Positions 1,527 through 17,602 of a stretch of 64,000 nt of DNA are shown in pieces (position 1 is the first letter of the stretch; the number at the start of each line of letters is the position of its first letter). The stretch is from Pseudomonas linyingensis (GTDB lineage: Bacteria; Pseudomonadota; Gammaproteobacteria; Pseudomonadales; Pseudomonadaceae): contig NZ_FNZE01000008.1 of assembly GCF_900109175.1 (NCBI RefSeq), positions 1-64,000 of the forward strand, in the 5' to 3' direction. The translations under genes and the position numbers were made by a program. A model generated the notes under the pieces. The model was not told the origin of the DNA and ran no database searches. It was given only the letters and a program-made list of their open reading frames with translations.

Positions 1527-1643
1527 TGTCCAGTCCGTAATTCAATCTGACCTGTTGCGGCACGAGCCAAAAGCAAAATTGGCAGATTTATTATTGTTGT
1601 TCGTGAAGCTGCCAGTTATCCGTAGAAGTTGATTTCTCAACGT

Positions 1644-1670
1644 GAAAAATCAGGCGGCCCAAGGGCCGCC
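1644..1670 (-). terminator. Rho-independent terminator after the TPP enzyme gene
   Basis: GGCGGCCC (1653-1660) pairs with GGGCCGCC (1663-1670) around a two-base turn; on the minus strand the stem is followed by TGATTTTT. It sits 10 bases beyond the stop codon of the TPP enzyme gene. Confidence 0.85.
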
Positions 1671-1679
1671 CGTTCTCTT

Positions 1680-3362: not shown

Positions 3363-3380
3363 AGGTCACTCCTTCACATG

Positions 3381-3407
3381 CAAAACGGGCGCCCGTGAGG
3401 CGCCCGT
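3381..3407 (-). terminator. Rho-independent terminator after the racemase gene
   Basis: Nine-base arms 3385-3393 (ACGGGCGCC) and 3399-3407 enclose a five-base loop; on the minus strand they are followed by TTTTG (3381-3385). It lies just past the racemase stop codon and upstream of the TPP enzyme start. Confidence 0.85.
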
Positions 3408-3428
3408 AGATGGCTGAGGTCGGCCGCG

Positions 3429-4676
3429 TTACTGCGCCGCCTGTTCCGGCTTGAGGAATTTCGGGTTGGAGTTGCCCCAGACCGTGTAGAGGTCGGCGAG
3501 CAGGGCACCGTTGAACTCTTCCAGCTCGCTTTGGGCAATTTCCTCCTTGCCCTGGGTGCCGAACAGCACCACCTCGGCACCGGGGTGTACGTCGGGAATG
3601 GCGGTGACGTCGACCATCAGGGTGTTCATCGACACCTTGCCGACCACCGGAGCGCGGTAGCCGTTGATCAGCACCGCTGCCTTGTTGGTGAACACCCGGC
3701 GGTAGCCGTCGGAGTAGCCGACCGAGATGTTGGCCAGACGCGAGTCGCGGGGCAGGGTGAAGGTGCTGTCGTAGCCGACCTTGTTGCCGGCCGGGTACTC
3801 GTTGACCGAGGCGACGCGCGACTTGAAGTTCATCACCCGGCGGTACTCGGTGTAGCTGGGCACGGTGTCGCCATACAGGGCGCCGCCGGGGCGGACCATG
3901 TCCAGGTGTGCCTCCGGCACTTCCAGGGTGGTGAAGGAATTGGCGCAGTGCAGCAGCAGCTGGCTGCGGTCGAGCTTGCCGTGCTCGATGACCCAGGCGG
4001 ACTCCTCCTTGAACTTGTCGAGGCCCTTGAGCACCTCGGCGCGGTCCTCGAAGGGGAAGTGGGTCATGATCCCGGCGACCTGCAGGCCCGGCATGTTGAC
4101 GATGTCCACGGCGGCCAGCTTGCCTTCGGTGGTGCCCATTTCCAGGCCGTTGCGGCTGATGCCGGCGGAATTCAGGCCGAGGTGGATGCGCACGGTCTTG
4201 TGCTCGGCCTGCGCCAGCTGGGCGACCTTCTCGGCGAATTCGAGGTCGCCGACCAGTTCTTCCATGTCGTACTGCAGGGCGTGCTGCACTTCGCCGAGGG
4301 TGGCGGTGCGCACGCGCATCAGGCGTCCGGTGAAGCCGTTTTCGCGGACGATGCGCGCTTCTTCGTTGCTGGCCACGCCGATGCAGGGGATGCCGGTGGC
4401 GATCACCGAGGGCATCAGCAGGTCGATGCCGTGGCCGTAAGCGTCGGCCTTCATCACCGCGCAGATCTGCGTCTTGGCGCCGACATGCTTCTGCAGCGCG
4501 GCGATGTTGTGCTCGAAAGCGACCTTGTCGATCTCGATCCAGGCGTTGGCGCCCTGGGCCTCGCGGCTGGCGGCATCGGCGGCGCCAGTGGCGTTGATCA
4601 GGGTGGGTGCGGCCAGTGTATGGCCGGCGAGCAGGGTGAGGGAAATCGCGATGGCGAGGCTGTTGCGCTTGAACAT
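3429..4676 (-). CDS. alr: periplasmic broad-specificity amino-acid racemase (alanine racemase fold)
   Basis: This 415-residue PLP enzyme has a clear Sec signal peptide at residues 1-23 (hydrophobic AIAISLTLLAGHTLA, then APTLI). Pyridoxal phosphate is expected on Lys76 in AVMKADAYGHG. The second catalytic base, a tyrosine, lies in NKVGYDSTF, and the conserved GYSDGY motif follows. An exported alanine-racemase-fold enzyme of this length is characteristic of the broad-spectrum racemases of Pseudomonas putida and Vibrio, which racemise lysine, arginine and others in the periplasm (known family). The cytoplasmic cell-wall alanine racemases are shorter and lack the leader. A terminator directly follows. 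The neighbouring TPP enzyme and saccharopine-dehydrogenase-like gene suggest that products feed basic amino-acid catabolism (inference). Confidence 0.9.
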   Translation of the reverse strand: MFKRNSLAIAISLTLLAGHTLAAPTLINATGAADAASREAQGANAWIEIDKVAFEHNIAALQKHVGAKTQICAVMKADAYGHGIDLLMPSVIATGIPCIGVASNEEARIVRENGFTGRLMRVRTATLGEVQHALQYDMEELVGDLEFAEKVAQLAQAEHKTVRIHLGLNSAGISRNGLEMGTTEGKLAAVDIVNMPGLQVAGIMTHFPFEDRAEVLKGLDKFKEESAWVIEHGKLDRSQLLLHCANSFTTLEVPEAHLDMVRPGGALYGDTVPSYTEYRRVMNFKSRVASVNEYPAGNKVGYDSTFTLPRDSRLANISVGYSDGYRRVFTNKAAVLINGYRAPVVGKVSMNTLMVDVTAIPDVHPGAEVVLFGTQGKEEIAQSELEEFNGALLADLYTVWGNSNPKFLKPEQAAQ

Positions 4677-4833
4677 CCTTGAATCTCCTTGGCGTTTTTA
4701 TTCTCGGAGCGGCACATGCTGGTATGGAGCTGCCCCGGCCGGAAATGGCCAGGGCAGTAGGCCCGCAGGGTGCGCAGGGCGCAGCCCATCCCCGGGGCGC
4801 CGCTGCGCCCCCTGCGGGTAAAGCAAAGGGATC

Positions 4834-4863
4834 AAACGAAACCTGCCCGCGATTGCGGGCAGG
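4834..4863 (-). terminator. Rho-independent terminator after the saccharopine-dehydrogenase-like gene
   Basis: CCTGCCCGC (4842-4850) pairs with GCGGGCAGG (4855-4863) around GATT; the minus-strand tail reads TTTCGTTT. It lies 10 bases beyond the stop codon. Confidence 0.8.
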
Positions 4864-4872
4864 TGTTCAGAC

Positions 4873-5970
4873 TCAGGCCGCTTCGCGGGCTTCGTCGGCG
4901 TGCTCTTCGTAGGCCTTGCCGAAGCGGTTGGCCAGGAAGTCGTTTAGGGCTACCTGCTCCTGGCTGATGAAGCCGGACTGCGGCAGGCGCTTGGCGCGGA
5001 ACAGGTCCAGGGCGGCGCAGATGCCGGCCGCGGTGGTGATCTGGATGGCGCTGGTCAGGCGGCCGCCCTGCACGTTGGCGAAGATCTTGCGGCTGAACAC
5101 TTCCTGCACCAGCTTGCCGTCCTTCAGGCCGTTGACGGTGACGAACACCAGCACCACGTCCTGCATGGTGGTCGGTACGGCGCCGCGCAGGATGTCCTTG
5201 AGCTTTTCCTGGTTGCCGGCCAGACGCAGATCCTCGAGGAGGAACTTCATCAGGTCGCGGTGGCCCGGGTAGCGCACGGTCTTGTAGTCCAGGGTTTCGA
5301 CCTTGCCGCTCAGGGTCTCGCACAGGGTGCCCAGGCCGCCGGAGGTGTTGAAGGCTTCGTACTCGACGCCGTCGAGGGAGAAGTGCTCGAGACCTTCCAT
5401 CGGCTGCACCAGCTGCAGGCGGCCGTTGCGGATCGCTTCGCACGGGTGGCAGTACTCGTTGACCAGGCCGTCGACGCTCCAGGTCAGGTTGTACTTCAAC
5501 GAGTTGGTCGGGAACTCGGGCAGGGCGCCGACGCGCATCTTCACTTCACGCACGCTGTCGAAGCGGGCGGCCAGCGAGTGGGCGGCGATGCCGATGAAGC
5601 CCGGGGCCAGGCCGCACTGCGGCATGAACGCGGTCTTGGCGTCCTTGGCCAGCTCCATGATGGTCTTGGTGGCATGCACGTCTTCGGTCAGGTCGAAGTA
5701 GTGGGTACCGGTGTTCTTGGCCGCCTTGGCCACGCCGATGGCCATGTGGTAGGGCAGGGCGTTGAGCACGGCGTCCTGGTCGGCCATGGCCTTCTCCAGG
5801 GCGGCGCCGTCAGCCGAATCCAGCTCCAGGGTGGCGATACCCAGTTCGGCAATGGCGCTCAGCGAACTGCTGTCGCGGTCGGCGACGACCACTTTGTAGT
5901 CGCCGGTGTTGTTCAGCAGTTGAGCGATGGTGTAGCCGATGTGACCAGCGCCAAGCAGGAGTACGTTCAT
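4873..5970 (-). CDS. saccharopine dehydrogenase/lysine dehydrogenase-like NAD(P)-dependent oxidoreductase
   Basis: A 365-residue protein. The N-terminus MNVLLLGAGHIGYTIAQLL is a Rossmann GxGxxG nucleotide-binding motif, followed by VVVADRD, the acidic end of strand 2 that favours NAD. The rest matches the catalytic half of the saccharopine dehydrogenase family (CGLAPGFIG around residues 118-126, YPGH, TTAAGICAAL near the C-terminus). Length and lack of an N-terminal lysine-ketoglutarate reductase part fit L-lysine 6-dehydrogenase-like or carboxynorspermidine-dehydrogenase-like members. Context with the racemase favours oxidation of lysine or a related basic amino acid (inference). It starts at ATG 5970 and is divergent from the dioxygenase gene across 321 bases. 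Confidence 0.8.
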   Translation of the reverse strand: MNVLLLGAGHIGYTIAQLLNNTGDYKVVVADRDSSSLSAIAELGIATLELDSADGAALEKAMADQDAVLNALPYHMAIGVAKAAKNTGTHYFDLTEDVHATKTIMELAKDAKTAFMPQCGLAPGFIGIAAHSLAARFDSVREVKMRVGALPEFPTNSLKYNLTWSVDGLVNEYCHPCEAIRNGRLQLVQPMEGLEHFSLDGVEYEAFNTSGGLGTLCETLSGKVETLDYKTVRYPGHRDLMKFLLEDLRLAGNQEKLKDILRGAVPTTMQDVVLVFVTVNGLKDGKLVQEVFSRKIFANVQGGRLTSAIQITTAAGICAALDLFRAKRLPQSGFISQEQVALNDFLANRFGKAYEEHADEAREAA

Positions 5971-6291
5971 TGTTGTTATCTCCGGGTTCGGTTGAATACG
6001 GAGCCAGTCTAGGTGGGGTGTCTGTTCGTCGATAAGACGTAAAGTGCCGCAATTCGATGACGCGACAAGTCAATCTGACGAGCTTGGCCGACAATATGTC
6101 GCAATTGCGCCGGCGAGACGGAATTTTCGGGCTTGTGTGCCGGCGGTGGTTGAACTGGCGCCTTGCTCAAGCCCCGGTGGCTCGATCATGGGCTTGATCC
6201 GCGCTCCTGCAGGCTGGCCAATGGCTCTGGCCAAACCCCCGATGCAGTGCCAGCATGACCTGCAGGTATTCGCATTACTCGGGGGCACGAC
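5971..6291. promoter_or_regulatory. divergent intergenic region with a repeated GCAATT motif
   Basis: This 321-base gap must carry promoters for the minus-strand dehydrogenase and probably for the plus-strand dioxygenase. Two similar blocks, 6044-6056 (GTGCCGCAATTCG) and 6097-6109 (TGTCGCAATTGCG), are 53 bases apart, which would suit a dimeric regulator. No regulator gene is adjacent, and no convincing -35/-10 pair was found by eye. Confidence 0.3.
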
Positions 6292-7062
6292 ATGGCCACC
6301 AGCGAACTCTTGGCACCCCTGACCGCCAGCCGTCTGCAGGCACTGCACCGCGACGGTTTCGTCCTGCTGCCGGGAGTGCTGGATGCTGCCCGGGTCGCCA
6401 CCCTGCGCACGGCGATCGACCGCCTCGAGCCCCAGCACTGGGACTACAGCGGCCTGTGCGACCATTACAAGTGCGTGTTCAACCGCGATCCGCTGTGGCT
6501 GGCGTTTCTCGATCTGGACGGGGTCATCGAGCTGGCCGAGGCGGCCCTCGACGCCGATTGCCACATCATCGGCCAGACCGCCTGGCGCAGCCATCCGGGC
6601 TTCGTCGGCGCCGAACTGCATCTGGACTATCTGGTCATGGAGCTGCCGCCAAGCCTGCTGGCCGATCCCGGCTTCGAATTGCCGATGCAGATCTGCACCG
6701 CACACCTCTACCTCGACGACATCGATGCCGACCTCAGCCCCACCCGGGTGATCCCGGGCAGCCACCGCGCGGGGCGCCCGCCCGCGGCCGGAGAAAACCA
6801 CTGGCAGGGCCGCACGGCGCAGCCGGTGCTGTGTCGGGCCGGGGACGTGCTGATGTTTCGCAGCGAGCTGTGGCACGCCGGCAGCGACAACCGCACCGCC
6901 GACCGCAGCCGCTACCTGCTGCAGGTGCACTACGGCCGGCGCATGGTGGCGCAGAAGTTCTCGCCCTACCTGCACTGGCACTTCAATCCCGAGGTGCTGG
7001 CTGCCGCGACGCCACGGCAACGGCGCCTGCTGGGTGAGCACGAGGAAGCCGAATACGACTGA
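6292..7062 (+). CDS. phytanoyl-CoA dioxygenase family protein (Fe(II)/2-oxoglutarate oxygenase)
   Basis: This 256-residue cytoplasmic protein has the double-stranded beta-helix signature of the PhyH family. The proximal iron ligands are HLD in GAELHLDYLV (about residues 106-108). The distal histidine lies in ELWHAGSDN (about residue 197). The 2-oxoglutarate-binding arginine follows in DRSRYLLQVHY. The N-terminus (GFVLLPGVLDAARV) is the usual family opening. Substrate cannot be told from sequence; bacterial members hydroxylate lipids, amino acids or antibiotic precursors. It begins at ATG 6292 after GGGGGCACGAC and stands alone, not in an obvious operon. Confidence 0.8.
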   Translation: MATSELLAPLTASRLQALHRDGFVLLPGVLDAARVATLRTAIDRLEPQHWDYSGLCDHYKCVFNRDPLWLAFLDLDGVIELAEAALDADCHIIGQTAWRSHPGFVGAELHLDYLVMELPPSLLADPGFELPMQICTAHLYLDDIDADLSPTRVIPGSHRAGRPPAAGENHWQGRTAQPVLCRAGDVLMFRSELWHAGSDNRTADRSRYLLQVHYGRRMVAQKFSPYLHWHFNPEVLAAATPRQRRLLGEHEEAEYD

Positions 7063-7416
7063 GCGCAGGTCGCCATACCCAGCCCTCGGCGTGGCTCGGC
7101 CAGTGCATTGCGCTTCGCCTGCGCCATCCCGCGCTCAAGTCGAGCAGTCGGTCCTGGAGCCGGTGCGAGTGCCGATGCCCGTTCACGCAGCCCCACCATT
7201 CAGGGGGGCGCGAGTCCGCTGCTGTTCTCAAAATTTTACCCGAGACTCGCTCGCGAGCCCTGTTTTCAACGACTAGCCTCACATATAGCGTTTGGCTACT
7301 AGGGCAGATCGGCACAGACGATGTGCAACGTTGGTTGGCGGCCTGGAGAGGGTCGGGCTGAGAGGTTCAGGGTTACCGTTTATTGAGTTGCGATTTTATC
7401 TGAAGGGTCATGACTC
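7063..7416. other. 354-base gap upstream of the motor-like operon
   Basis: No credible gene is seen on either strand. The right half is AT-richer (CTCAAAATTTTACC, TTTATTGAGTTGCGATTTTATC) and is the likely promoter and leader of the operon starting at 7417, where GAAGGG (7401-7406) is the ribosome binding site. No known operator was recognised. Confidence 0.4.
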
Positions 7417-8859
7417 ATGGAGTTCCTGAAGAAAATGTTTAGCTGGTTATTGATTTCTGGAAAGACAGAACCGTCTGGAAATCATCCGGATTTACATCCT
7501 CTCGACCTCGATGAACTCAAACAGGAGCTCAATGTCGAGTTCGAGGCCCGCCGACTGGGTGAAGTCGGATTGCCCCGCCCCGAGGAGACGCGTCTTTCCG
7601 GACCTGAAAATAAAATTGTCCAGCGCCTGGAGGCGGCGCGACGCGACTACATGAACTGGGCCACGATCAGGTTGAAGAATATCCAGATAAAAATGCATGC
7701 CTGTGACATCACCAAAACGGTGAATCGTGCGTTGCAGGCTGCCGAGGAGTTCGAACGGACGGCGAATGGACACTTGTCCGATTATGAAGCTGAAATTCGT
7801 CGCCTGCAGGCCGCCGCATTGCAGATGGAGGAGGATCTGCGACTTTTCAAGCTGGATAACCGCCTTGTGCGAACGGCAAAGGTGGCTTCGCCAACCCAGA
7901 AGCTGACGTTCGTTTTCCTTGCAATATTCATCGTGGTTCTGGAAGGCGCACTGAATGCGAATTTCTTTGCGCAGAGTCTGGATGGCGGGCTGATCCAGGG
8001 GTTTACCTATGCGTTTCTATTGGCGTTTTGCAACGTGGCGGTGGCCATGGCGCTGGGTCGCTTCGGAGTTCCGCACGTGAACCATATCAGGCCGCTCAAC
8101 CGGATGATCGGTTATTCGGCGCTGATCGTGGCGCCTGTCATCATGGTGGTCATGGGCCTGGTCATCGCCCATTTTCGCGACAGTCTCGCGCAAGGCCTGG
8201 ACGATCCGGCAAGCAATCCGGGGGGCGTCGCTTTGCAGACCCTGATGAACAACCCTTTTCAGTTGCACGATATTTATTCGTGGCTGCTGTTTGGCCTGAG
8301 CATATTTTTCGCGCTGGCCAGTCTTGCCGAGGGCTACTACTGGGAAGACCCCTATCCCGGCTTCAGCCGTGTGCAAAAGAACGCCGACAACGCAGTCCAG
8401 GAGTACGAGGAAGGCCTCGCGGAAATGCGCGAGCTTCTCGAGAAACTCAAGGATGAGCATCTTGACGTGCTGGAAAGCAGCATGGATACGGCCAGGGCCG
8501 CGGTGCTCGAGTACAAGGAGCAGATCCATGAAAAGACGTCCTCGCGACACCGCTTGCAGCGAGCGCTACATAAGGCAGAGAACGTGCTGGAAGCCTTGAT
8601 TGCGATTTTCAGGACCGACAATGAACTCCACCGCAAACGAAAGGGCGTGCCAATACCCGCCTATTTTTCGTCGAAGGTCGCCCTTCAGGAAATCGAGTGG
8701 CCCAGCTTCGAGACGGCGCAGGACGAGCAATCCCTGGCGCGCCAGGAGGAGTTGCTGTCCAGGCTGATGGACAAGGTGGAGCCTATCCGCGCGCAAATAC
8801 AGTCGTCATTCGATTCGCGGTTCGATCAGCTCAAGTCGATCCGTGAGCAGATCCGGTGA
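7417..8859 (+). CDS. four-helix membrane protein with long flanking coiled coils (first gene of motor-like operon)
   Basis: A 480-residue protein of a family I do not recognise. Residues about 30-155 are charged and helical, with heptad-like stretches (EFERTANGHLSDYEAEIRRL). Hydrophobic segments then occur at about 162-184, 192-213, 230-251 and 287-305. Residues about 318-480 form a second, acidic coiled coil (EEGLAEMRELLEKLKDEH). Both coiled arms are probably on the same, cytoplasmic side if there are four membrane spans. The next gene overlaps or abuts the stop codon, and the following genes encode VWA-like, MotA-like and MotB-like proteins, so this is probably a structural part of one envelope complex (inference). 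No enzymatic motif is visible. Confidence 0.75.
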   Translation: MEFLKKMFSWLLISGKTEPSGNHPDLHPLDLDELKQELNVEFEARRLGEVGLPRPEETRLSGPENKIVQRLEAARRDYMNWATIRLKNIQIKMHACDITKTVNRALQAAEEFERTANGHLSDYEAEIRRLQAAALQMEEDLRLFKLDNRLVRTAKVASPTQKLTFVFLAIFIVVLEGALNANFFAQSLDGGLIQGFTYAFLLAFCNVAVAMALGRFGVPHVNHIRPLNRMIGYSALIVAPVIMVVMGLVIAHFRDSLAQGLDDPASNPGGVALQTLMNNPFQLHDIYSWLLFGLSIFFALASLAEGYYWEDPYPGFSRVQKNADNAVQEYEEGLAEMRELLEKLKDEHLDVLESSMDTARAAVLEYKEQIHEKTSSRHRLQRALHKAENVLEALIAIFRTDNELHRKRKGVPIPAYFSSKVALQEIEWPSFETAQDEQSLARQEELLSRLMDKVEPIRAQIQSSFDSRFDQLKSIREQIR

Positions 8860-8870
8860 GGGTCGATCCC

Positions 8871-9677
8871 ATGGCGAAAGTGGGCAGGGTAGCGCGCAGG
8901 AAGAGAAACAGGGAGCTGATCAGGGCAACCGGTCTGGGTCTGCTCCTGCTGGCGGTGCTTTCGATGGGCGGGTATTTCTTCGTGCACCGAGACATCGCTC
9001 CCGACCGGGCGACGCTATGCCCGGCCAGCGGACCGCTCGGACATTACGTCGTGCTGGTCGACAACACCGACCCCTACAACTTCATGCAGCGCCAGGCGTT
9101 TTTGCAGAGCCTGACCGCGCTGGCCGAGGAAAAGGTCGAGGAAGGGCATCTGTTGTCTATCTATGTCCTGGGTGCCGAGGTCTCCGAGCACGCCACGCCG
9201 GTGTTCGAGAAGTGCAATCCGGGTGTCGGGGCGGGCAAGTCGGAAATGACCGCCAATCTGGCAAGGATCAAGAAGCGCTATGAGGACGAATTCAAGAAGC
9301 CAATCCTCAAGCTGTCGGAGAGCGTGTTGGTGGACAAGCCCTCCGACCGCTCACCCATTTTCGAAATGCTGCAGATAGCCTCCATCAACGGGTTTCGTGC
9401 CAAGGACGTCCAAGGCGACCGCGTGCTGGTCATCTTTTCCGACATGCTACCGAACACGCAGGAGTTCAGCATGTTCAAGGGATACGGTTCATTCAGTAGT
9501 TTTCTCGACTCGCATTACGGCAGGAAGTCGCAAACCGACCTCGGTGGGGTCAAGGTGGAAGTCAACTATCTACTGAATTATCCCAAGCTGCAGACCAGAA
9601 GCCAGCTGAGCTTCTGGGAAGAGTACTTTAAAAAGGCCGGTGCCAGAATCGTCTCAGTAAAAACCTTGGAAGGTTGA
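8871..9677 (+). CDS. membrane-tethered VWA-like protein (second gene of motor-like operon)
   Basis: The 268-residue protein starts at ATG 8871; a GTG at 8856 overlaps the previous stop as GTGA and is an alternative start. A basic N-terminus (RVARRKRNREL) precedes one transmembrane helix at about 20-40, so the bulk should lie in the periplasm. The domain resembles a von Willebrand A fold: strand and metal-site-like loop HYVVLVDNTDP, a middle RSPIFEM, and a later strand with an acidic residue, RVLVIFSDML. The first loop is DxTDP rather than the classical DxSxS, so metal binding is uncertain. Two cysteines in the mature part (LCPAS and EKCNPG) could form a disulfide. The next gene starts three bases past the stop, consistent with translational coupling. 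Confidence 0.7.
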   Translation: MAKVGRVARRKRNRELIRATGLGLLLLAVLSMGGYFFVHRDIAPDRATLCPASGPLGHYVVLVDNTDPYNFMQRQAFLQSLTALAEEKVEEGHLLSIYVLGAEVSEHATPVFEKCNPGVGAGKSEMTANLARIKKRYEDEFKKPILKLSESVLVDKPSDRSPIFEMLQIASINGFRAKDVQGDRVLVIFSDMLPNTQEFSMFKGYGSFSSFLDSHYGRKSQTDLGGVKVEVNYLLNYPKLQTRSQLSFWEEYFKKAGARIVSVKTLEG

Positions 9678-9679
9678 TT

Positions 9680-11131
9680 ATGGACAAGACCGCCAAAGTT
9701 TCGTTGAAGAGGCTTTTCATCGTGGTCTGCTCGCTAAAGATCGCGAGTTCGGCCGTTGGCTGGTGTTTCGATCAGCCCTGGTTGTTCGGGCTGGCTTTGC
9801 CCTTGCTGTTCATGGTTGCCTATATAGTCGTTGGCTACAATTTTCGCGACCGAGAGCTGTCGGCCGAGAAGTTTGCGGACTCCTGTTACTATCTGGGCTT
9901 TATTTTCACCATTGTCTCTATCGTTTTCAGCCTGGTCGACATCCCCAATATTGGCAACGACATGACCAGCATTGCGGTACGCTTTGGTGCGGCCATGGTG
10001 AGTACCGTGCTGGGCTTATTTGTCCGTGTGGCTTTGGTCAGCTTCAGGCCCAACGCCGAGGATGCCCTGACCAATGTCGAGGATGAGGTTCTGGCATCAT
10101 CCAGAAGGCTCACCGAAGAATTCAACAATGCATTCGACGATCTGCAGGACTTTCGCGGCAATGTAAGTAGCGCCGCGAAGGACTCGGTCGCGCTGGTCAA
10201 CACCCAGTTCGTAGCCTTGGCCGAGCAGAATGCCGCGCAGATGAGCGAGTTTTTTGCGCAAATGTCTCGGCTCAACAAGGAAATGCTCCTTTGCGTCGCT
10301 CAGGACATCCGGAATGCATCCCTGGGCCTGACCCGGGTCGTCAACGAGTACGAGGGATCGATCAAGGCGACGGTCAGTAAGATCGATACCTCCGTTGCCG
10401 GCTTTTCCCATCATTTGATCCGCCGGCTCAATGCCGTCGAGTTTCCCGACGATATCTTCTCCCGCAAGCTGGATGCGCCCATCGCCAGTCTCAGTGAGCG
10501 GGCAGGGACGCTCGGCGCAGGTATAGGGAAGCTTTCCGACGATGTGCTAAAGGCCGCCAGGGCAGTCGATAAGTCGGTTGGGGAGATCAATCTCAAGGCC
10601 GAGAGCATGGCGCAGACCCTTGACGTGGTTCGGCAAATCGCTGCGCAGCAAGAGCAGTTGGCCCAACTGATGAGTACCCAGCAGGAAGGCCTGGCGGCCA
10701 AGCTGCAGGCGCAGCAGGAAAGCCTTGCCGCCCAGGTCCGCGCTCAGCAGGAGTTCATCTCCCAAGGCTTCCAGCGGCAAACCCAGGAGCTTTCGGCGAT
10801 CGCCCAGGCTTTCGGAAAGTTCGATGCATCGCTCGAGAGGCTGATCGACAACCTGTCCGTCAGCCATGAATCGACCGCACGGCTGGCGGGCAAGGTCGAT
10901 GGGGTGAACAGCAATAACGCCGCTCTGCTGGAGGCGCTGCGCGAGTCGGTCGCGTCGCTGACCCATGCGTTCGCCTCGGCCAGCCATCGCGACGAGCAGG
11001 TGACAGATGGCATGCACCCATCGCGGCAGACCAGCCCTGCAACGGAGGCGCGCCTGGAGACGCCCGGCGCGCGATCCCCCTTCGACGCTCTGCAGGCGAG
11101 TGCGCCCATTTCCGTTCACAAACCTGACTGA
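9680..11131 (+). CDS. MotA/ExbB/ZorA-like membrane protein with long coiled-coil tail (third gene of motor-like operon)
   Basis: This 483-residue protein starts at ATG 9680, 6 bases after GGAAGG. Four hydrophobic segments fall at about 11-28, 35-53, 69-87 and 98-120. The last two resemble the pore helices of proton-channel stator proteins: LGFIFTIVSIVFSL and the T/GL pattern in AMVSTVLGLFVRVAL (Thr109, Gly112). From about 125 to 430 the chain is a long helical tail with Gln/Ala-rich repeats (LQAQQESLAAQVRAQQE), comparable in architecture to the cytoplasmic tail of ZorA. The C-terminal 50 residues are disordered. With the downstream MotB-like gene this looks like a motor pair (inference from topology and context; overall similarity to known stators is weak). 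It is distinct from the true motAB at 56.6 kb. Confidence 0.65.
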   Translation: MDKTAKVSLKRLFIVVCSLKIASSAVGWCFDQPWLFGLALPLLFMVAYIVVGYNFRDRELSAEKFADSCYYLGFIFTIVSIVFSLVDIPNIGNDMTSIAVRFGAAMVSTVLGLFVRVALVSFRPNAEDALTNVEDEVLASSRRLTEEFNNAFDDLQDFRGNVSSAAKDSVALVNTQFVALAEQNAAQMSEFFAQMSRLNKEMLLCVAQDIRNASLGLTRVVNEYEGSIKATVSKIDTSVAGFSHHLIRRLNAVEFPDDIFSRKLDAPIASLSERAGTLGAGIGKLSDDVLKAARAVDKSVGEINLKAESMAQTLDVVRQIAAQQEQLAQLMSTQQEGLAAKLQAQQESLAAQVRAQQEFISQGFQRQTQELSAIAQAFGKFDASLERLIDNLSVSHESTARLAGKVDGVNSNNAALLEALRESVASLTHAFASASHRDEQVTDGMHPSRQTSPATEARLETPGARSPFDALQASAPISVHKPD

Positions 11132-11142
11132 GCGGCCAAGCC

Positions 11143-12240
11143 ATGTCGGCAAAGAGTGATCAGGTTTTCCAGCTCTCCTTGACGGAAATCGCGTTCATGA
11201 TCGCCTTCATCCTCATGTTCCTGCTGGGCTTTCACCTCTACAAGACGACCCAGGAGAGCAAGAGCGTCAGCGAGAGGCTTGCCGCTGTGGAGGGGGTGGA
11301 GCAAAAAACGGCCGACCTGAACAACGCGGCCCAGGTATTGGCGCAGGCGATTGCGGCCAACACTGCCCTGAACCCCGATGAAGTCATCAGCAAGCTGATC
11401 GCGGAGAGCGCGGCCAAGACCGAAGTGGAACGGCTCGAGCGCCTTCTGGAAGATCAGGACAGGCAAATCACGGCGCTGGCCGAGATTCAGAAAGCGGTGG
11501 ATCAAGTCCCTGCCGATCGGAAGGACGCGAAGATCAGGGAGGAGGTGCAGGCGTCCTTGCTGCTGGCGGCAGAGGTGAGGAAACACCTGGAGGAGGAGAC
11601 GCAGGCTGCAGGTCAGGCAGAGGAGCAGAGCGATGCGTCATCCGTCGCGGAGAAGGCCGCCGAGTCGATTCGCGAGCTGGCAAAAATCGAGGAGCTGCTC
11701 GCCGCCAAGGAGGGGAGTGCGGAGACTCCTGGCGAGCCTGCAGAAAAGCCCTCCGACAAGGTGGCCGAAATCATCAAGCGAGTTCAGGAACATGCCGCTC
11801 AGATGGGCGGCGGCAAGAGTCCGGAGGCGGTGAAGAAAGAAAACGCGGATTTGCGCGGTCAGATCGCCTTTTTGCACAACAAGCTCAGTGCCAAAGGCGG
11901 TATTGACTATCCGCCCTGCTGGGCCGTCGAGCAGACGGGGAAGATCCAGATGCTGCTCTCTGTCGAGCTGCGCGAGAACGACCTCTCGGTAGCGAAGGCA
12001 TGGCCGGCTTCCCGAGAGCAGGATGCCATGGCGTTGCCGGGCATCCAGGCCGTTCTCGCCAAGCCGGTGACGACCTACGCCGAGTTCATCCGCGATACCC
12101 AGGCCATCGCCGATCTGAGCCGCACCCTGAACTGCCGTTACTACGTCAGGCTCAAGAGCACGATTGCCGACGCGGTGCAGTCCGACCGGCGGCGTCTGAC
12201 GATCGAGGACAGTTTCTACAAGTACGAGGTTCGCCGCTGA
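11143..12240 (+). CDS. MotB/ExbD/ZorB-like single-pass protein (fourth gene of motor-like operon)
   Basis: A 365-residue protein with one N-terminal transmembrane helix at about 12-33. The start of the helix, LSLTEIAFMIAFILMFLLG, aligns with the plug/pore helix of MotB, ExbD and ZorB (SFTDL-type), with Glu15 where those proteins carry the ion-binding aspartate. A long charged coiled coil (about 38-250) follows, then a compact C-terminal domain (about 254-365) containing YPPCW (Cys259) and LNCRYYV (Cys331), two cysteines that could pair in the periplasm, ending in FYKYEVRR. This C-terminal domain is not the OmpA-like peptidoglycan-binding fold of MotB. ATG 11143 lies 11 bases after the previous stop. 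Role in a motor complex is inferred. Confidence 0.65.
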   Translation: MSAKSDQVFQLSLTEIAFMIAFILMFLLGFHLYKTTQESKSVSERLAAVEGVEQKTADLNNAAQVLAQAIAANTALNPDEVISKLIAESAAKTEVERLERLLEDQDRQITALAEIQKAVDQVPADRKDAKIREEVQASLLLAAEVRKHLEEETQAAGQAEEQSDASSVAEKAAESIRELAKIEELLAAKEGSAETPGEPAEKPSDKVAEIIKRVQEHAAQMGGGKSPEAVKKENADLRGQIAFLHNKLSAKGGIDYPPCWAVEQTGKIQMLLSVELRENDLSVAKAWPASREQDAMALPGIQAVLAKPVTTYAEFIRDTQAIADLSRTLNCRYYVRLKSTIADAVQSDRRRLTIEDSFYKYEVRR

Positions 12241-12313
12241 GCGATTCTGCCAGCATGTCTGGCGGCGCTTCGGGTCGCCCGACATGGTCCACTGGCCGGC
12301 GCAACTGCGCCTG

Positions 12314-13387
12314 TTAGTAGCCGGTCATTTCCAGATAGCCTCGCCCGCCGGGGCTGCCCTCGAGACGGATCGGCCCTTCCCAGTAGGGAAACGATGTGCC
12401 CATCCAGGCGCGCGGCTGGATGGACTCGGCCTGCACATCCACGCCGTGATCGGCAACCCGGACACGCCAGCGGGTCGGCACCTTGCGGCCGTTGGCCTGG
12501 CGCGTCCAGGCCAGTTCGTCGAGCTGGATCTGCTCGCCCCGCAGCGCGACGGCGCGGCCGTCGGCGGCGATCCAGGTGCCGGCGCGGTAGTGCAGGCCGT
12601 CGGCCTGGCGGACCCGGAACAGCATCAGCTTGGCGCCACCGTCCAGGTGCAGGGAAAACCAGTCCCAGCCGTGTTGATCGGCCGCCAGCGGCTGGCTGCT
12701 CCACTCCCGGTCCAGCCAGGCCTGCCCGCTGACCGCGTAGCGCTGGCCGGCGCGCTCGATCTCGCCGCTGACCCGGTAGAACGGCTGGCTGTAGTACCAG
12801 GACGCCTGCCCCTGGCCGGACTTCACGCTGTAGCCCCCTGCGCCGTGCAGCACCAGCGGACCGTCGCTGTCCAGCTGCAGGAGATAGCGGAAGTCCTTGC
12901 CGGACGCCTGCATCTGCAGATGCTCGAGACCTTCGCCGGCCGTGCTGTGCAGCGACCAGTCGTCGATCCAGGCGCGGAAGGGCTGCGCCTCGACGCCCGC
13001 CTGGCCGATGCCGCCGCGGGCCAGGGTTTCGCCGGACTGATGGCCGTACGGGCCGGTGAGGGCGGCATGGCCCATCCACAGGTTGGGGCTGTTCCAACCG
13101 GGCTCGTCGGCGCCCGGGCGCAGTGCCGAGCGGAACAGCGTCCATTGCACGCCCCAGTCGCGGCCCTGTTCGTCGCTGAGGTTGGCGGTGACGTACCACC
13201 ATTCGATGCGATAGCCGTGATGGGCGCCGTGGTCGGCCGGGAACTGCAGCGGCCGGCCCCGTTCGACCTGGGCGAAGGCGGCGGCGTCCGCGCCGAGGCC
13301 GGCGAAACCGCCGGGCGGCTGCGGCGCCTCGTCGCAGGCCCCGAGCAGCAGGAGCGCGCCGATGAGCAGGGCCTGCCTAGCGTTCAT
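12314..13387 (-). CDS. AttH/CrtC-like lipocalin-fold lipoprotein
   Basis: A 357-residue protein with a lipoprotein signal peptide (LLIGALLLLGACDEA; lipobox cysteine at residue 18). The body matches the predicted secreted hydrolase/AttH family related to hydroxyneurosporene synthase CrtC: YRIEWWYVTANL near the N-terminus, WMGHAAL, and the basic Trp-rich LDREWSSQPL in the second lipocalin-like half. Known members are encoded with an ABC transporter (attEFG) and are thought to act on or carry a lipid-like compound. Here the start codon overlaps the end of the permease gene by 11 bases, so the three genes form one operon. Substrate unknown. Confidence 0.8.
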   Translation of the reverse strand: MNARQALLIGALLLLGACDEAPQPPGGFAGLGADAAAFAQVERGRPLQFPADHGAHHGYRIEWWYVTANLSDEQGRDWGVQWTLFRSALRPGADEPGWNSPNLWMGHAALTGPYGHQSGETLARGGIGQAGVEAQPFRAWIDDWSLHSTAGEGLEHLQMQASGKDFRYLLQLDSDGPLVLHGAGGYSVKSGQGQASWYYSQPFYRVSGEIERAGQRYAVSGQAWLDREWSSQPLAADQHGWDWFSLHLDGGAKLMLFRVRQADGLHYRAGTWIAADGRAVALRGEQIQLDELAWTRQANGRKVPTRWRVRVADHGVDVQAESIQPRAWMGTSFPYWEGPIRLEGSPGGRGYLEMTGY

Positions 13388-15854
13388 CGGCGAACTGCCT
13401 CAACAGGTCGGCGGGCTGGCGCCGCGCCAGTTGCCAGAGCGGCCCGGCGGCGGCGAGCAGGCTGGTGAGCAGACCGAGCAGGGCCAACTGCAGCAGTTGC
13501 CCGGGAAACACATGCAGCGGCAGGCGCCAGCCGAAGGCCTGCACGTTGACCACCGCCACCAGGCACCAGGCCAGCAGCACGCCCAGGGGCATCGCCAGCA
13601 GCACGGTCAGGCTGGCCAGCAGCAGCGTTTGCCCCAGGCTCAGCCAGGCCAGCCGCGTGCGGCCGACGCCCAGTGCCCAGAGCGGCGCCAACTGGCCCAG
13701 GCGGCTGTGCCCCAGGGTCAGCAGGCTGATGAACAGGGCCACGCCGGCGACCAACAGGGTCAGGCTGTTGAGCGCGGCGGTGGCGGCGAAGGTGCGCTCG
13801 AACACCGCGGTCGACCAGCGTTTCAGCGTGGCCTGCTCGATCAGCCGGGTGGCGTCCAGGCCATAGCGTTGCTCGAGCTGTTCCTTCAGCGCGGCGACCT
13901 GCGCCGGCTGCAGGCGCAGGCTGAGATTGCTCAGCCGCGCCTCGCTCCAGTGGCGGCGTAGCCAGTCGGCGCTGACCAGCAGGTGCCCGCGGGGATTGCC
14001 GTAGTCGGCGTACAGCCCCACCACGCTCAGGTGCTGCTCGCCCTCGGCGCCCGGCAGCGGCAGGCGGTCGCCCAGCCCCAGCTTGAGACGCCGCGCCAGT
14101 TGCTCGCTGAGCATCGCGCCTTGCCCGGCGGCCAGTTGTGTCCAGGCATCGGCCCGTTGTTCCAGCAGCGGCCAGTGTCGGCGGTAGCTGGGGTGGTCGA
14201 CGATGCCCTGCAGCTGCACCGGCCAGCCCTGCAGGCGCATGTCGACCCGCCAGTTCGGCAGGACCGCCTCGACGCCCGGCCGGCCGGCGAGCCAGGCGCT
14301 GATTTCCAGCGCCTGCGCAGTGTCGCGGGGCGTCAGGTAGAGGTCGGCGGACAGGCGCTGGTCGAGCCAGCCGACGAAAGTCTGGCGAAAGCCCTCGGTC
14401 ATGCTTCCGACCCCTACGCTGGCGGCCAGTGCCAGCAGCAGGGCCATCAACGCCAGCGCCAGGGCCGGCAGTTGCTGGCGGCTGTCGGCCACGAACCATT
14501 CGGCCAGCGGTCCGCGGGAATGCCGCGCCAGCACTGCCAGCGTGGCGTCGAGCAGTGCCGGTAGCAGCAAGGCTGCCGCCAGCAACAGTGCGGCGAGCAT
14601 CGCAAAGGCGGCGAGCAGACTGTCGCCGAACCGCCAGCAGCCGGCGGCCAGCAGCAGAAGCACGCCGGCCAGCAACGCCTGGCGGCGCAACCAGCGGCTC
14701 TGCGCGGCACGCCAGGCCTGCGGTAGCGCCAGCGCCAGGAGCGGCAGCTGCGCGGCGCGCCACAGGCTGTTGCCCCCAGCCAGCAGCGCGCCGAACAGGC
14801 TCATGGCGATGCCGGACAGCCACCACTGCGGAGACAGGCTCAATTGCCCGGCCACTTCCGCGCCATACAGGCCGCGCAGGCTGGCTGCGACATCGTCGAG
14901 CAGCAGGCTGGCCAGCAGGTAGCCGCAGGCCACCCCGGCCAGGCCGCCGAGCAGGGCCAACAGACCCAGCTCCACCGCCAGCGCGCCGATCAACCCGCGC
15001 AGGCTCACGCCGCAGGCGCGCAGGGTGCGCAGCAGGCCGCGGCGTTGCTCCAGGGCCAGGCCGATGGCGGCATGCACGATGAACAGGCCGACGAGGAAGG
15101 CCAGCAGACCGAGGGCGCTGAGGTTGAGGTGGAAGCTGTCGGTCAGGCGCTGCAGGTCGTCGCCGGCGCTCGACGGCTGCAGCTGCAGCAGCTCGGCCAG
15201 CGCGGCCGGCAGATCCGGCGGCCGGACTGCGAAATCCGCCGGCAGCAGCAGCCGCGACAGCTGCCCCGGCGCCTGCAGCAGCGCCTGGGCATGGCCGATG
15301 TCGACGACGATCACCCCGGGCGCCAGTTGCGTGTGCACCTGCAGGGGCGGCAGGCGCTGGCCATCGCTGGTCAGTGCCCGCTCGCCGGGCTGCAGGCCGA
15401 GACGCTGCAGGGTGTCCGCGGCGATCCAGGCCTGTCCCGGGGGGCCGATGAAGGCGCGCAGATCCGACGCGCCGCCGGGCTGCCCGGCCACCACGGTGCC
15501 CGGCGGCAGGGTCAGCGGCTCGATGCCGAGCAGTCTTACGCTGAGCGGCTCCGCGCCGGCAAAGCGCAGGCGTCCTTCCAGCACCGGCGAAACCGGCCAG
15601 CCGCTGCGACGCAGCTGCACATACGCCGCCTGCTCGAAGCGTTCGCCCCGGCGTGCCACCAGCTGGGCCTGCGCCGGCCCGGCGAGCAGCGCACTGGCAC
15701 GGGCGTAATCGGCGCGGGCCTGACTGTTGAGCGCCTGCACGCCGGTCCACAAGGCGGTGGCCAGCCACAGGCCGGTGAGGATGCTGAACAACTGCAACGG
15801 GTGTCGCCGCCAGTGGCTGAGCAGTGCCAGCAGGCTGATCCGCAGCATGGCCAT
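13377..15854 (-). CDS. ABC transporter permease with two FtsX-like domains (AttFG-like fusion)
   Basis: This 825-residue protein begins at ATG 15854, sharing TGATG with the ATPase stop. The N-terminal helix is RHPLQLFSILTGLWLATAL, followed by an extracytoplasmic domain (about 40-240). Then come groups of membrane helices typical of FtsX/MacB permeases (LGLLAFLVGLFIVHAAIGLAL, the Leu/Ala-rich helices around 330-470), a second periplasmic domain, and a C-terminal three-helix set (about 690-810). A duplicated FtsX arrangement of this length fits permeases that extract lipids or lipoproteins from the inner membrane, such as the AttF/AttG type fused into one chain. It partners with the ATPase and the lipocalin-like lipoprotein of the same operon. 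Confidence 0.8.
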   Translation of the reverse strand: MAMLRISLLALLSHWRRHPLQLFSILTGLWLATALWTGVQALNSQARADYARASALLAGPAQAQLVARRGERFEQAAYVQLRRSGWPVSPVLEGRLRFAGAEPLSVRLLGIEPLTLPPGTVVAGQPGGASDLRAFIGPPGQAWIAADTLQRLGLQPGERALTSDGQRLPPLQVHTQLAPGVIVVDIGHAQALLQAPGQLSRLLLPADFAVRPPDLPAALAELLQLQPSSAGDDLQRLTDSFHLNLSALGLLAFLVGLFIVHAAIGLALEQRRGLLRTLRACGVSLRGLIGALAVELGLLALLGGLAGVACGYLLASLLLDDVAASLRGLYGAEVAGQLSLSPQWWLSGIAMSLFGALLAGGNSLWRAAQLPLLALALPQAWRAAQSRWLRRQALLAGVLLLLAAGCWRFGDSLLAAFAMLAALLLAAALLLPALLDATLAVLARHSRGPLAEWFVADSRQQLPALALALMALLLALAASVGVGSMTEGFRQTFVGWLDQRLSADLYLTPRDTAQALEISAWLAGRPGVEAVLPNWRVDMRLQGWPVQLQGIVDHPSYRRHWPLLEQRADAWTQLAAGQGAMLSEQLARRLKLGLGDRLPLPGAEGEQHLSVVGLYADYGNPRGHLLVSADWLRRHWSEARLSNLSLRLQPAQVAALKEQLEQRYGLDATRLIEQATLKRWSTAVFERTFAATAALNSLTLLVAGVALFISLLTLGHSRLGQLAPLWALGVGRTRLAWLSLGQTLLLASLTVLLAMPLGVLLAWCLVAVVNVQAFGWRLPLHVFPGQLLQLALLGLLTSLLAAAGPLWQLARRQPADLLRQFADER

Positions 15855-16519
15855 CAGGCCTCCCCTGGCTGGATGCGGCCCTGGCGCAGGTACAGGGTAC
15901 GGCCCAGACGCGAGGCCAGACGCGCGCTGTGGGTGACCATCAACAGGCTGCTGCCGGTCTCGCTGACCAGCTCCAGCAGCAGGTCGAGCACCGCTGCGCT
16001 GCTGGCCTCGTCCAGGTTGCCGGTCGGCTCGTCGGCCAGCAGCAACGCCGGCCGTGCCGCCAGCGCCCGGCCGATGGCCACGCGCTGCTGCTGGCCGCCG
16101 GAGAGCTGTTCGGGATAGCGCGCCAGCAGGGACGCCAGCCCCAGGCGCTCGGCCAGATGGCCGATCCAGGCCTGATCGTGGCGTCCGGCCAGGCGCGCCT
16201 GGAAGGACAGGTTGGCCGCCACGTCGAGGCTGCCGATCAGGTTGTACTGCTGGAACACCAGGCCGATGCCTTCGCGCCGCCAGCGCGCCAGCTCCGCCTC
16301 GCGGCGCCCCTGCAGGGGCTGGCCGTCGACCAGGATGCGTCCGCTGTCGACGCGCTCCAGCCCGGCGATCAGGTGCAGCAGGGTGCTCTTGCCGCTGCCG
16401 GATTCGCCCATCAGCGCCAGGCTGCTGCCGGTCGACAACTGCAGATCGACCCCACGCAACACCGGCAGGCTGCCTTGGGCGGTGACGAACGACTTGTACA
16501 CATTCTCGACGATCAGCAT
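15854..16519 (-). CDS. ABC transporter ATP-binding protein (LolD/MacB-type, AttE-like)
   Basis: The 221-residue ATPase has a complete set of motifs: Walker A GESGSGKST, Q-loop VFQQYNLIGSLDV, signature LSGGQQQRVAIGRAL, Walker B LLLADEPTGNLD and the switch histidine in LMVTHS. Length and sequence are typical of the LolD/MacB group that pairs with FtsX-domain permeases. It is the first gene of a three-gene minus-strand operon with stop/start overlap to the permease. The likely role is export or extraction of a hydrophobic compound from the inner membrane, handed to the lipocalin-fold lipoprotein (inference). Confidence 0.9.
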   Translation of the reverse strand: MLIVENVYKSFVTAQGSLPVLRGVDLQLSTGSSLALMGESGSGKSTLLHLIAGLERVDSGRILVDGQPLQGRREAELARWRREGIGLVFQQYNLIGSLDVAANLSFQARLAGRHDQAWIGHLAERLGLASLLARYPEQLSGGQQQRVAIGRALAARPALLLADEPTGNLDEASSAAVLDLLLELVSETGSSLLMVTHSARLASRLGRTLYLRQGRIQPGEA

Positions 16520-16758
16520 GTGCGGGACTCCTGCATGCTGGAGTGAGAAGGATAGCTGGCCAGCTCGTCGCTCTCGTCGGCATCCCGGGCTTCACGGCTG
16601 TGCGCCTTGGCATGCCGAGGCCGCTTGCGCGCCAGGCTCCCGGTGATGACGGCCCAGGAATATCCCTGCCGGAGGCCGTTGGGCAGCTTTCCCTTCACAG
16701 TCGCGCTGGACTGCCCGAAGATCGAAGGCGTCGATGATGCGCAGGCGAGGTTCCCAAC

Positions 16759-17142
16759 ATGAGCGCGCAGCTGAACCACACTATCGTCTGGTGCCGCGAC
16801 AAGGAGAAGTCGGCGACCTTCCTCACGGAGCTCCTCGGCCTGCCCAGCGCCAGCCGCTTCGGGCCGATGCTCGTCGTCCAGCTCGCCAACGGTGTCTCGC
16901 TCGATTTCCACGAACACGCCGGCGAGATTTCCTCCCAGCACTATGCCTTCCTGATCGACGAAGATGACTTCGACCAGGTCTTCGCCCGCATCCGGGGTCT
17001 AGGGTTGCAGTACTGGGCCGACCCCGGCAGGCATCGCCCAGGCGAAATCAACCGTAACGATGGGGGGCGCGGGGTGTATTTCGAGGACCCCGACGGCCAT
17101 TTCCTCGAGGTCATCACCCGGCCCTACGGCAGCGCTGGTTGA
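16759..17142 (+). CDS. VOC-family (glyoxalase/bleomycin-resistance fold) protein
   Basis: A 127-residue protein made of two beta-alpha-beta-beta-beta units. The first opens with LNHTIVWCRDKEKSATFLTELLG, the usual VOC strand and helix carrying the first metal-ligand histidine. The second ends with GVYFEDPDGHFLEVITRPYG, carrying the final conserved glutamate. The single-domain size fits glyoxalase-like or dioxygenase-like members that act as homodimers. Substrate cannot be inferred. It starts at ATG 16759. The 239 bases before it hold no recognisable gene. Confidence 0.8.
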   Translation: MSAQLNHTIVWCRDKEKSATFLTELLGLPSASRFGPMLVVQLANGVSLDFHEHAGEISSQHYAFLIDEDDFDQVFARIRGLGLQYWADPGRHRPGEINRNDGGRGVYFEDPDGHFLEVITRPYGSAG

Positions 17143-17220
17143 TGTGCCCTCCACGATTCAGCACCGAGCAAGACTCGCCGGGCAGGTAAACTACCCGCGA
17201 CTTCAGCAGAGACCCGCCCG

Positions 17221-17574
17221 ATGAGTTGTACCAGCCGAAAGATCGACCAACTGCGCCGGCAGATCCCCGGGTTCGCCTGCGAGCCCGGATGCCACGACTG
17301 CTGCGGGCCGGTCACGGCGTCGTCCGAGGAGATGTCGCGACTGCCGGTGAAAAGCGACGCCGAACATGACGCCGCGCTGGCCGAATGGAACTGCGTGCAT
17401 CTCGGTGCGCAGGGCTGCGAGGTGTACGAGCAGCGCCCGCTGATCTGTCGCCTGTTCGGCACCACGGCGAGTCTGCCATGCCCCCGCGGACGCGGCCCCG
17501 AAGCGCCAACGGAGGCGCATGTCGAGCAGCAGGTGCACGAGCTGATTGCGAGCACACGCCAGGTGCTGGTTTAA
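17221..17574 (+). CDS. YkgJ-family cysteine-cluster protein
   Basis: This 117-residue cytoplasmic protein carries the conserved cysteine pattern of the YkgJ (zinc- or iron-chelating domain) family: ACEPGCHDCCGPV near residues 19-29, then NCVHLGAQGC, then YEQRPLICRLFG, the family's RPxxCR motif. The cysteines probably bind a metal or Fe-S cluster; the biochemical role of the family is not established. It starts at ATG 17221, 78 bases downstream of the VOC gene on the same strand, and is convergent with the next gene. Confidence 0.85.
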   Translation: MSCTSRKIDQLRRQIPGFACEPGCHDCCGPVTASSEEMSRLPVKSDAEHDAALAEWNCVHLGAQGCEVYEQRPLICRLFGTTASLPCPRGRGPEAPTEAHVEQQVHELIASTRQVLV

Positions 17575-17602
17575 GGAGGCGGCCGGGCCGGCCCTGCGAG
17601 TC

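Follow-up and report, generated by a model that had tools for sequence, protein, structure and literature searches.

We describe a cassette of four plus-strand genes at positions 7417–12240 of a 64,000-nucleotide stretch of contig NZ_FNZE01000008.1 (hereafter the window; labels beginning with L and G denote examined loci and genomes, respectively). We propose, as what we consider on balance the probable interpretation, that the four products form one ion-driven machine of the 5:2 class, which senses the envelope and most likely defends against incoming DNA, the effector in the second of the family's two branches being a predicted periplasmic nuclease. The proposal builds on a conserved four-gene unit, a vWA fold, channel-type membrane helices, a kept pattern of acidic and hydroxyl residues, nucleases linked or fused to the cassette and an insertion in the window's lineage, all of them seen in sequences or structure models. 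A first-pass annotation of the same DNA had described four genes separated by gaps of 11, 2 and 11 bases, or by a GTGA overlap, and this layout proved correct: the open reading frames (ORFs) encode 480, 268, 483 and 365 amino acids, and an alternative GTG start of gene 2 at 8856 overlaps the stop codon of gene 1 in a GTGA. None of the four proteins passed the curated cut-offs of Pfam or NCBIfam, and PADLOC gave weak matches to coils only.

The four proteins

Gene 3 (9680–11131, plus strand; alternative TTG start at 9674) encodes a 483-residue protein that, judged from its ORF and from Pfam and Foldseek comparisons, appears to be a divergent channel subunit of the MotA/ExbB/ZorA type with a long C-terminal coil, an assignment that comes from the convergence of tests each marginal alone. 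It had been annotated as having two pore helices and a coiled tail, and while the last two helices do match the pore pair and a coil does follow, the membrane helices number four rather than two, with cores at residues 12–30, 34–52, 68–86 and 102–120. In a model of residues 1–240, helices span residues 3–29, 33–54, 62–86 and 95–121 and are followed by long helices to residue 239; about 360 residues of the protein lie beyond the fourth helix, and the modelled part ends among the long helices at residue 240. The third helix core (9881–9937, plus strand) carries the invariant T77 and S80 and the fourth (9983–10039, plus strand) carries S108–T109, both being placed by hydrophobicity and alignment. 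The T..S pattern of helix 3 was present in 100/100 sequences, and in helix 4 the pair was ST in 97/100 and TT in 2/100, one sequence being unreadable. The hydroxyl pattern itself is thus kept, and by analogy the Ser/Thr ring would face the axle acid and the pore. MotA has a torque-generating loop, for which gene 3 offers no room since about 15 residues lie between helices 2 and 3.

Comparison with known channel proteins points in the same direction, as the annotation had anticipated. Residues 68–120 match Pfam PF01618 (MotA_ExbB) at E 7.9e-4, below the cut-off, and the gene 3 homologue of G256 is borderline for the same family, with 21.2 bits in hmmscan and 23.1 bits, over the cut-off, in the genome search with its neighbours. 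Against 31 MotA/ExbB domains the last two helices align in register (hhalign E 0.0016). The first Foldseek match was type II ZorA (8vvi_C; probability 0.96, E 0.15), and the first 13 rows were all ZorAB, ExbBD, TolQRA or MotAB entries, with lower probabilities of 0.15–0.82 after rank 1. VIA-align likewise placed type II ZorA first (Z 10.2, root-mean-square deviation (rmsd) 2.6 over 97 residues), a score that is not decisive because designed helical bundles at Z 9.9 and 9.3 tie with ZorA. A sequence-profile search of the PDB was uninformative, giving coiled-coil or apolipoprotein-type matches with no motor protein among the matches listed. In a separate search of 143 genomes, the NCBIfam ZorA_3 profile hit 19 at E 0.001 and passed its curated cut-off in none.

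Gene 4 (11143–12240, plus strand) encodes the putative axle, a 365-residue single-pass protein in the MotB/ExbD/ZorB position with one hydrophobic segment and a C-terminus predicted to be periplasmic. Its single N-terminal helix (SLTEIAFMIAFILMF) is followed by a coil, and a PPCW motif marks the C-terminal domain. Within the membrane helix (11173–11229, plus strand), E15 (codon 11185–11187) is the sole acidic residue of the core, and a glutamate was found there in 99/99 readable sequences of 100, L117, in which the gene 4 reading is broken, being unmatched (in L120 the ORF start of gene 4 was wrong). The axle acid of MotB is an aspartate. An aspartate is also given for ZorB in the available text of PMC11890865. 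The annotated resemblance of this helix to MotB, ExbD and ZorB therefore holds for a single axle helix with a conserved acid, though not for the identity of that acid, which is Glu and not the Asp of MotB and ZorB.

The C-terminal PPCW...CR domain of gene 4 (11896–12237, plus strand) occupies the place of OmpA in homologues from the other branch, and no OmpA match was found in the window's gene 4. Residues P30, P31, C32, W33 and C104 of the domain are invariant in the 7 aligned sequences. It gave nothing below E 0.2 in Pfam, no sequence match in the PDB and no tblastn match in plasmids or phages, and in 321 genomes of the class it was found three times, in the window, in G256 and as an orphan in G220. 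At L187 (8603–9625) we observed an orphan gene-4-like protein with the SLTE helix and PPCW, gene 3 being absent among the nearby listed ORFs of at least 180 amino acids; the gene upstream of it looks like one for a SIR2-type NAD enzyme, which is how we take it.

The first two genes encode the remaining membrane proteins. Gene 1 (7417–8859, plus strand) specifies 480 residues with hydrophobic regions at approximately 156–186, 191–219, 227–258 and 283–308 and charged arms on both sides, in agreement with the four-helix protein with coiled arms that had been annotated; the N- and C-terminal coiled arms are predicted to be cytoplasmic. Gene 2 (8871–9677, or from the GTG at 8856, plus strand) encodes 268 residues, with a single N-terminal membrane segment, the hydrophobic core of which has no acidic residue in the window's protein, followed by a predicted periplasmic vWA domain (residues 53–268; 9027–9674, plus strand), as the annotation had supposed. 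The domain is recognised from its structure model, in which gene 2 carries a vWA fold: the model has a predicted local distance difference test (pLDDT) score of 78.5, Foldseek matched it to vWA domains at E 2.6e-5 with probability 1.00, and the best VIA-align hit reached Z 12.8 with an rmsd of 3.3 over 156 residues. At the sequence level the domain had no match in Pfam, and a profile search of the PDB returned a single hit, to an unrelated enzyme at E 0.18.

Gene 2 shares 24–30% identity with 20 relatives. C50 and C115 are invariant in the 21 sequences, which suits a disulphide outside the cytoplasm. A complete MIDAS metal-site motif of vWA domains reads DxSxS. In gene 2 the strand-1 motif is D-x-T-D-P, with D64, D67 and P68 invariant in the same 21 sequences, so that by its sequence the MIDAS metal site is degenerate, the first Asp being kept and the Ser positions altered.

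Conservation, branches and insertion

The four genes are conserved as a unit. Among 99 loci, which were found through gene 1 or gene 3 and hence are not independent of the cassette, all four genes occur in order in 93; five have genes 1 and 2 only and one is cut by a contig end. For the loci found through gene 3 alone, genome contigs were scanned with the head of gene 3 and the best 80 of 208 relatives were kept, mostly from rhizobia and their kin; 80/80 of these loci carry the other three genes. Further, the complete cassette was present in 5/5 additional genomes of the window's family and in the one locus of the viral collection (1/1). Because the same genes recur in the same order across loci, the four-gene set is not due to chance. 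Keeping in mind that many loci are near copies, we grouped the 93 complete loci into 37 clusters at 90% gene 1 identity, leaving out the six without all four genes; L028 belongs to the window's branch and yet is within the 37, and L070, a 4.3-kb contig too short to show neighbours, is counted as lacking an SNase.

A gene 1 tree of 43 rows separates the window and five rows of its class (support 100/100) from 37 other rows, and the set that the annotation had expected to be conserved together is kept in both of these deep branches. Named members of the second branch are Alphaproteobacteria, and it also includes five genomes of the phylum from outside the window's class and the viral-collection locus. 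Every member of the window's branch has a gene 4 ending in the PPCW domain. Among second-branch members scanned, OmpA matches were found in gene 4 of L009, L035, L036 and L012 (in the last at only E 0.005), and 4/6 plasmid copies of gene 4 are annotated as OmpA family, while L037, also of the second branch, has PPCW in place of OmpA.

The distribution is always sparse. A gene 1 profile found matches in 5/369 genomes of the class, 11/398 of the phylum and 6/398 of the family, the window's own genome being included each time, and these counts take in diverged gene 1–gene 2 pairs without a motor: apart from the own genome and G256, three of the five class matches remain, each a motor-less pair or a cut contig, and the phylum matches include three pairs. 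In the genus, gene 1 occurs in 1/8 genomes, the window's own.

A tblastn search of plasmids with gene 1 gave 24 records from alphaproteobacterial genera, all below 30% identity among the matches listed; of these records 15/24 are typed as conjugative or mobilizable and 9/24 as non-mobilizable, and the six plasmid loci that we opened all have the same four-gene order. Within the collections used and at the sensitivity of these searches, close relatives were found neither in phages (tblastn of gene 1) nor in E. coli genomes (blastn of genes 1–3), no near relatives were found in plasmids, and in viral_contigs gene 2 gave nothing and the gene 3 head gave one locus. That locus, L165 (1916–11113), has the cassette and two SNase genes, and its contig carries what we take to be genes for a serine recombinase and a LexA/S24-like repressor; perhaps it is a mobile island rather than a phage. 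Two relatives from one genus of the window's family, L171 (3–1899) and L173 (1–1731), have the cassette near genes that are presumably the transposition genes TniB and TniQ.

Gene 1–gene 2 pairs were also observed on their own. In L031 (1076–4948) and L040 (7080–10994) distant pairs without a motor are followed by a gene that, by a reading of its sequence alone, would encode a VirD4/TraG-like ATPase, and in L038 (8231–10620) and L039 (10208–12597) the pair stands without genes 3 and 4, near genes that look to us like Tat export genes. The pair may be a module able to serve different engines.

In the window's lineage the cassette lies in a probably acquired insert at 7066–12310 (no strand), where 5,245 bp are present against 24 bp in the congener G004. 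Window positions 1588–7065 align at 91.1% to L180 3988–9459, and positions 12311–18345 at 89.8% to 9484–15506 of the same locus; the empty site is known from this one genome only. The insert sits between two convergent genes, one for a PhyH-type dioxygenase and the other for a CrtC-type protein, and no additional gene is evident inside it. On the sequence of one congener, the mobile unit in this lineage seems to comprise the four genes and nothing more. The G+C content of the four cassette genes is 0.556–0.61 vs. 0.65–0.72 in the flanking genes, and this base composition favours gain in the window over loss in the congener. An integrase, terminal repeats and a target duplication were looked for at the insert edges in the window and none was seen. 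In a second congener, G003, gene 1 is absent and the two flanks, though close to each other, are rearranged; the flanking CrtC gene has no match in 5/8 genomes of the genus. Elsewhere in the window, at 56511–58474, Pfam matches to MotA_N, MotB_plug and OmpA mark an ordinary MotA/MotB pair of the flagellar type, which is not close to the cassette in either sequence or place.

Linked nucleases and neighbouring defence genes

The annotation had raised a possible defence role, which gains support from nucleases linked or fused to the cassette and from neighbouring defence genes. It had also noted the absence of a Zor nuclease, which is right for the window, but other-branch relatives have nucleases of different kinds, for which a location on the periplasmic side is predicted. 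In 26/37 clusters and 40/93 loci an SNase either is fused to gene 4 or is encoded no more than 3 kb from the cassette, and for the second branch alone, with L028 excluded, the share is 26/36 clusters; this tally used the SNase profile only, and other kinds of nuclease were not sought systematically. The linked SNase may be on either side of the cassette and in either orientation. All but one of these SNases (37/38) have a hydrophobic stretch at the N-terminus, as is typical of exported or anchored proteins. Two gene 4 proteins carry a fused nuclease after their OmpA domain, which is an SNase in L035 (E 2.3e-13) and a GmrSD_C-family HNH domain in L036 (E 2.3e-11); the likeness of gene 4 to MotB would place these fused nucleases in the periplasm.

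The linkage exceeds what chance would give. Seven second-branch genomes hold 22 SNases in total, six of them at or in the cassette vs. 0.04 expected (Poisson P 5e-12), and when one genome per genus is taken there are four vs. 0.027 expected (P 2e-8); in these estimates genome sizes are rounded, G631 is taken from search coordinates, and G482/G631 and G691/G721 are same-genus pairs. The seventh genome, without a cassette SNase, is the one with the fused HNH domain. Mapped onto the gene 1 tree, the presence or absence of a nuclease requires a minimum of six changes, four of them forced by well-supported branches. Two SNases are encoded in the window's genome, neither of them on the window's contig. 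In L106, where the cassette also has an SNase, a gene 1.1 kb upstream (4428–5612) encodes a protein with an apparent signal peptide and a motif like that of S1/P1 nucleases; Pfam detects one S1/P1 nuclease among 142 neighbour proteins.

These 142 neighbours, taken from one locus per cluster and scanned as a batch, matched 165 PADLOC families at E 1e-8. When 20 of the 142 were scanned singly with PADLOC, strong defence matches within 4.5 kb of the cassette were obtained in six clusters: PD-Lambda-1 (L007), RmrA (L041), type IIG restriction (L099), GajA (L102), SngA with SngC (L107) and PDC-S37 (L032). A seventh cluster, L117, gave a partial MkoA match. We excluded matches to mad3, mad8 and AriA from the defence tally, since the window's ordinary ABC ATPase produces them too. 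Near the Sinorhizobium fredii cassette lies a gene whose product has DUF4041 and T5orf172 domains and matches the PADLOC family PD-Lambda-1 (E 7.4e-170); we take PD-Lambda-1 to be the SNIPE family.

Two other kinds of neighbour recur. Proteins of one family are encoded directly after the cassette in 6/37 clusters (L112 6452–7651 and others), probably the DUF4236 family, which Pfam finds in 5/142 neighbours, and SH3_3 proteins are frequent as well (6/142). Either type may be an accessory part.

Proposed mechanism and alternative explanations

By analogy with ZorAB and MotAB, five copies of the gene 3 product would form a ring and two copies of the gene 4 product an axle, with ions passing between the axle Glu and the Ser/Thr ring of gene 3 helices 3 and 4 and thereby turning ring and axle against each other. 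The part of gene 4 that would reach into the periplasm is an OmpA-type domain in the other-branch members tested and the PPCW domain in members of the window's branch; gene 2 would contribute its vWA domain on the same side, as a sensor or adaptor. Together these periplasmic parts may sense an envelope breach or anchor the machine to the envelope, the axle being held by the wall or cued by damage, and the gene 3 coil and the coiled arms of gene 1 could relay the movement or signal inward. In the second branch the output would be a nuclease on the periplasmic side, either an exported or anchored SNase or an SNase or HNH domain fused to gene 4, that cuts phage or plasmid DNA as it crosses the envelope. 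In the window's branch the effector might be the motor itself through its own ion flux, the PPCW domain, or a host enzyme or nuclease. We also put forward, tentatively and as a little short of probable, that the cassette founds a new family of surveillance machines distinct from Zorya, in which a ring–axle motor with a vWA protein detects an envelope breach and directs or releases a periplasmic nuclease, so that DNA is cut before it reaches the cytoplasm, the window's branch using a different output domain on its axle.

Several observations weigh against our interpretation. We infer the 5:2 assembly, the ion flux, the topology, the sensing and the defence role. For gene 3, the PF01618 match is weak (19.6 bits, with the cut-off at 22.9), the hhalign probability is just 16%, the model of residues 1–240 is of low confidence (pLDDT 66, predicted template modelling score 0.37), and no Foldseek row reached E 0.001, ExbB and TolQ following close behind ZorA; the tie with designed bundles in VIA-align belongs here too. 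No SNase lies within 3 kb in 11/37 clusters (50 loci) and in 53/93 loci overall, including three large Rhizobium groups (42 loci, many of them close relatives) and both Paracoccus plasmids, and some of these loci are in ordinary metabolic surroundings; among the 11 clusters, one has the fused HNH domain and one, L070, is too short for judging. A linked SNase was found in 0/6 tree rows of the window's branch. The window's flanks consist of metabolic and transporter genes, and nine neighbouring proteins scanned there gave no defence matches beyond generic ABC-ATPase ones. Of the neighbours scanned singly elsewhere, 13/20 gave no match or a generic one only, and the defence-gene neighbourhood, counted without a matched control, is suggestive only.

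It is conceivable, though in our view unlikely, that the cassette encodes a machine for envelope maintenance or stress rather than defence, a Tol/Ton-like force transducer with the vWA protein as its load, and that the SNase recycles or removes periplasmic DNA. vWA proteins beside TolQ-like motors have been proposed to transmit force to the outer membrane (PMC12204202, in the part available), and there, as here, a membrane-tethered vWA protein is encoded beside a ring of the MotA/ExbB/TolQ type. OmpA-type domains on gene 4 would suit peptidoglycan anchoring, and the three SNase-less Rhizobium groups, many of whose loci share neighbours such as an ABC-type gene, fit this explanation as well. 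In the families described in the available part of PMC12204202 the vWA protein takes one of two forms: either it carries an Asp axle helix itself and a separate axle gene is missing, or it has a SHLS helix like that of TonB and is encoded next to genes resembling tolR. The cassette, by comparison, has a separate axle gene in 93/99 loci, with Glu wherever the motif was readable, and the window's vWA helix has no acid in its core. Against a maintenance role, gene 1 is patchy (11/398 in the phylum, 6/398 in the family and 1/8 in the genus), and a housekeeping machine would be expected to be broader and vertically inherited; the insertion with an empty site, the carriage on plasmids and the known defence genes among the neighbours point the same way. 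Less probable still is a new type of Zorya, in which gene 3 would be ZorA, gene 4 ZorB, and genes 1 and 2 its own specificity proteins. Type II ZorA does lead in both structure searches, and the plan is the same (compare the available text of PMC11890865): a ring protein with channel helices and then a long coil, a single-pass axle with a peptidoglycan-type (OmpA) domain in relatives, nuclease effectors and a patchy distribution. On the other side, PADLOC ZorA profiles match the coil only (best E 0.0038), NCBIfam ZorA_3 gives E 1.2, and no ZorB profile matches any of the four proteins in PADLOC. Zorya types have their own partners, ZorCD, ZorE or ZorFG (PMC8565338 and PMC11890865, in the text available), and no match to ZorC, D, E, F or G was found in the four proteins or in nine window neighbours. 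Where a Zorya axle combines Asp with an OmpA-type domain, the cassette has Glu, and an OmpA match is missing from the window's gene 4 but present in homologues from the other branch. The cassette has two additional core proteins, the four-helix coiled protein and the vWA protein, and distant gene 1–gene 2 pairs exist without genes 3 and 4; its effector, where present, is predicted to be periplasmic, outside the cytoplasm, and is mostly encoded separately. On sequence grounds the cassette may work like a Zorya-type motor and should not be filed as Zorya.

We consider it improbable that the cassette controls DNA transfer or processing by mobile elements in conjugation or uptake, for instance as an entry-exclusion device of plasmids or islands against rivals. 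Such a role would agree with the VirD4/TraG-like ATPase gene adjoining distant gene 1–gene 2 pairs in L031 and L040 and with the conjugative or mobilizable typing of 15/24 plasmid records, and a nuclease in the periplasm would encounter the single-stranded DNA of a transfer just as it would the DNA of a phage. Yet the pairs linked to VirD4 have diverged widely, with gene 1 scores of 37 and 48 bits, the other 9/24 plasmids are non-mobilizable, and no annotated transfer gene stands beside the cassette in the six plasmid loci opened, the plasmid gene tables being incomplete.

The defence machine that we favour also differs from other known systems. It shares channel helices and a Ser/Thr pattern with MotAB, ExbBD and TolQR, and some of its axles have a MotB-like OmpA domain, but gene 3 has a long C-terminal coil and the cassette has extra partners. 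With SNIPE, which cuts phage DNA during injection (PMC13190303, in the part available), it would have in common the idea of cutting DNA at the membrane during entry; SNIPE, however, consists of a single protein, has its GIY-YIG domain in the cytoplasm and lacks a motor, whereas the nuclease found with the cassette is of the SNase or HNH kind, accompanies a motor and is predicted to lie across the membrane. Diverse uncharacterised motors are noted in a survey of MotAB homologues (PMC12505986), and the four-gene set is not described in the available part of that survey; a search of the open-access literature, with subscription papers outside it, found no description of the set either. The annotation's view of a separate machine matching no known system is consistent with these results and with the comparisons that set the cassette apart from Zorya.

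In the available text of PMC11890865, the authors call Zorya a unique case in which machinery of this type has been adapted to defence, and they speculate that there are others. If our interpretation is true, the cassette would be a second, independent motor-based defence after Zorya, with a sensor-like vWA protein and a different carboxylate in the ion path, and one of its branches would have its effector on the opposite side of the membrane from Zorya's. The family would then provide a natural test of how rotation or ion flow becomes an immune output, and it would bear on whether bacteria cut invading DNA in the periplasm by command, as opposed to relying on constant secretion of nucleases.

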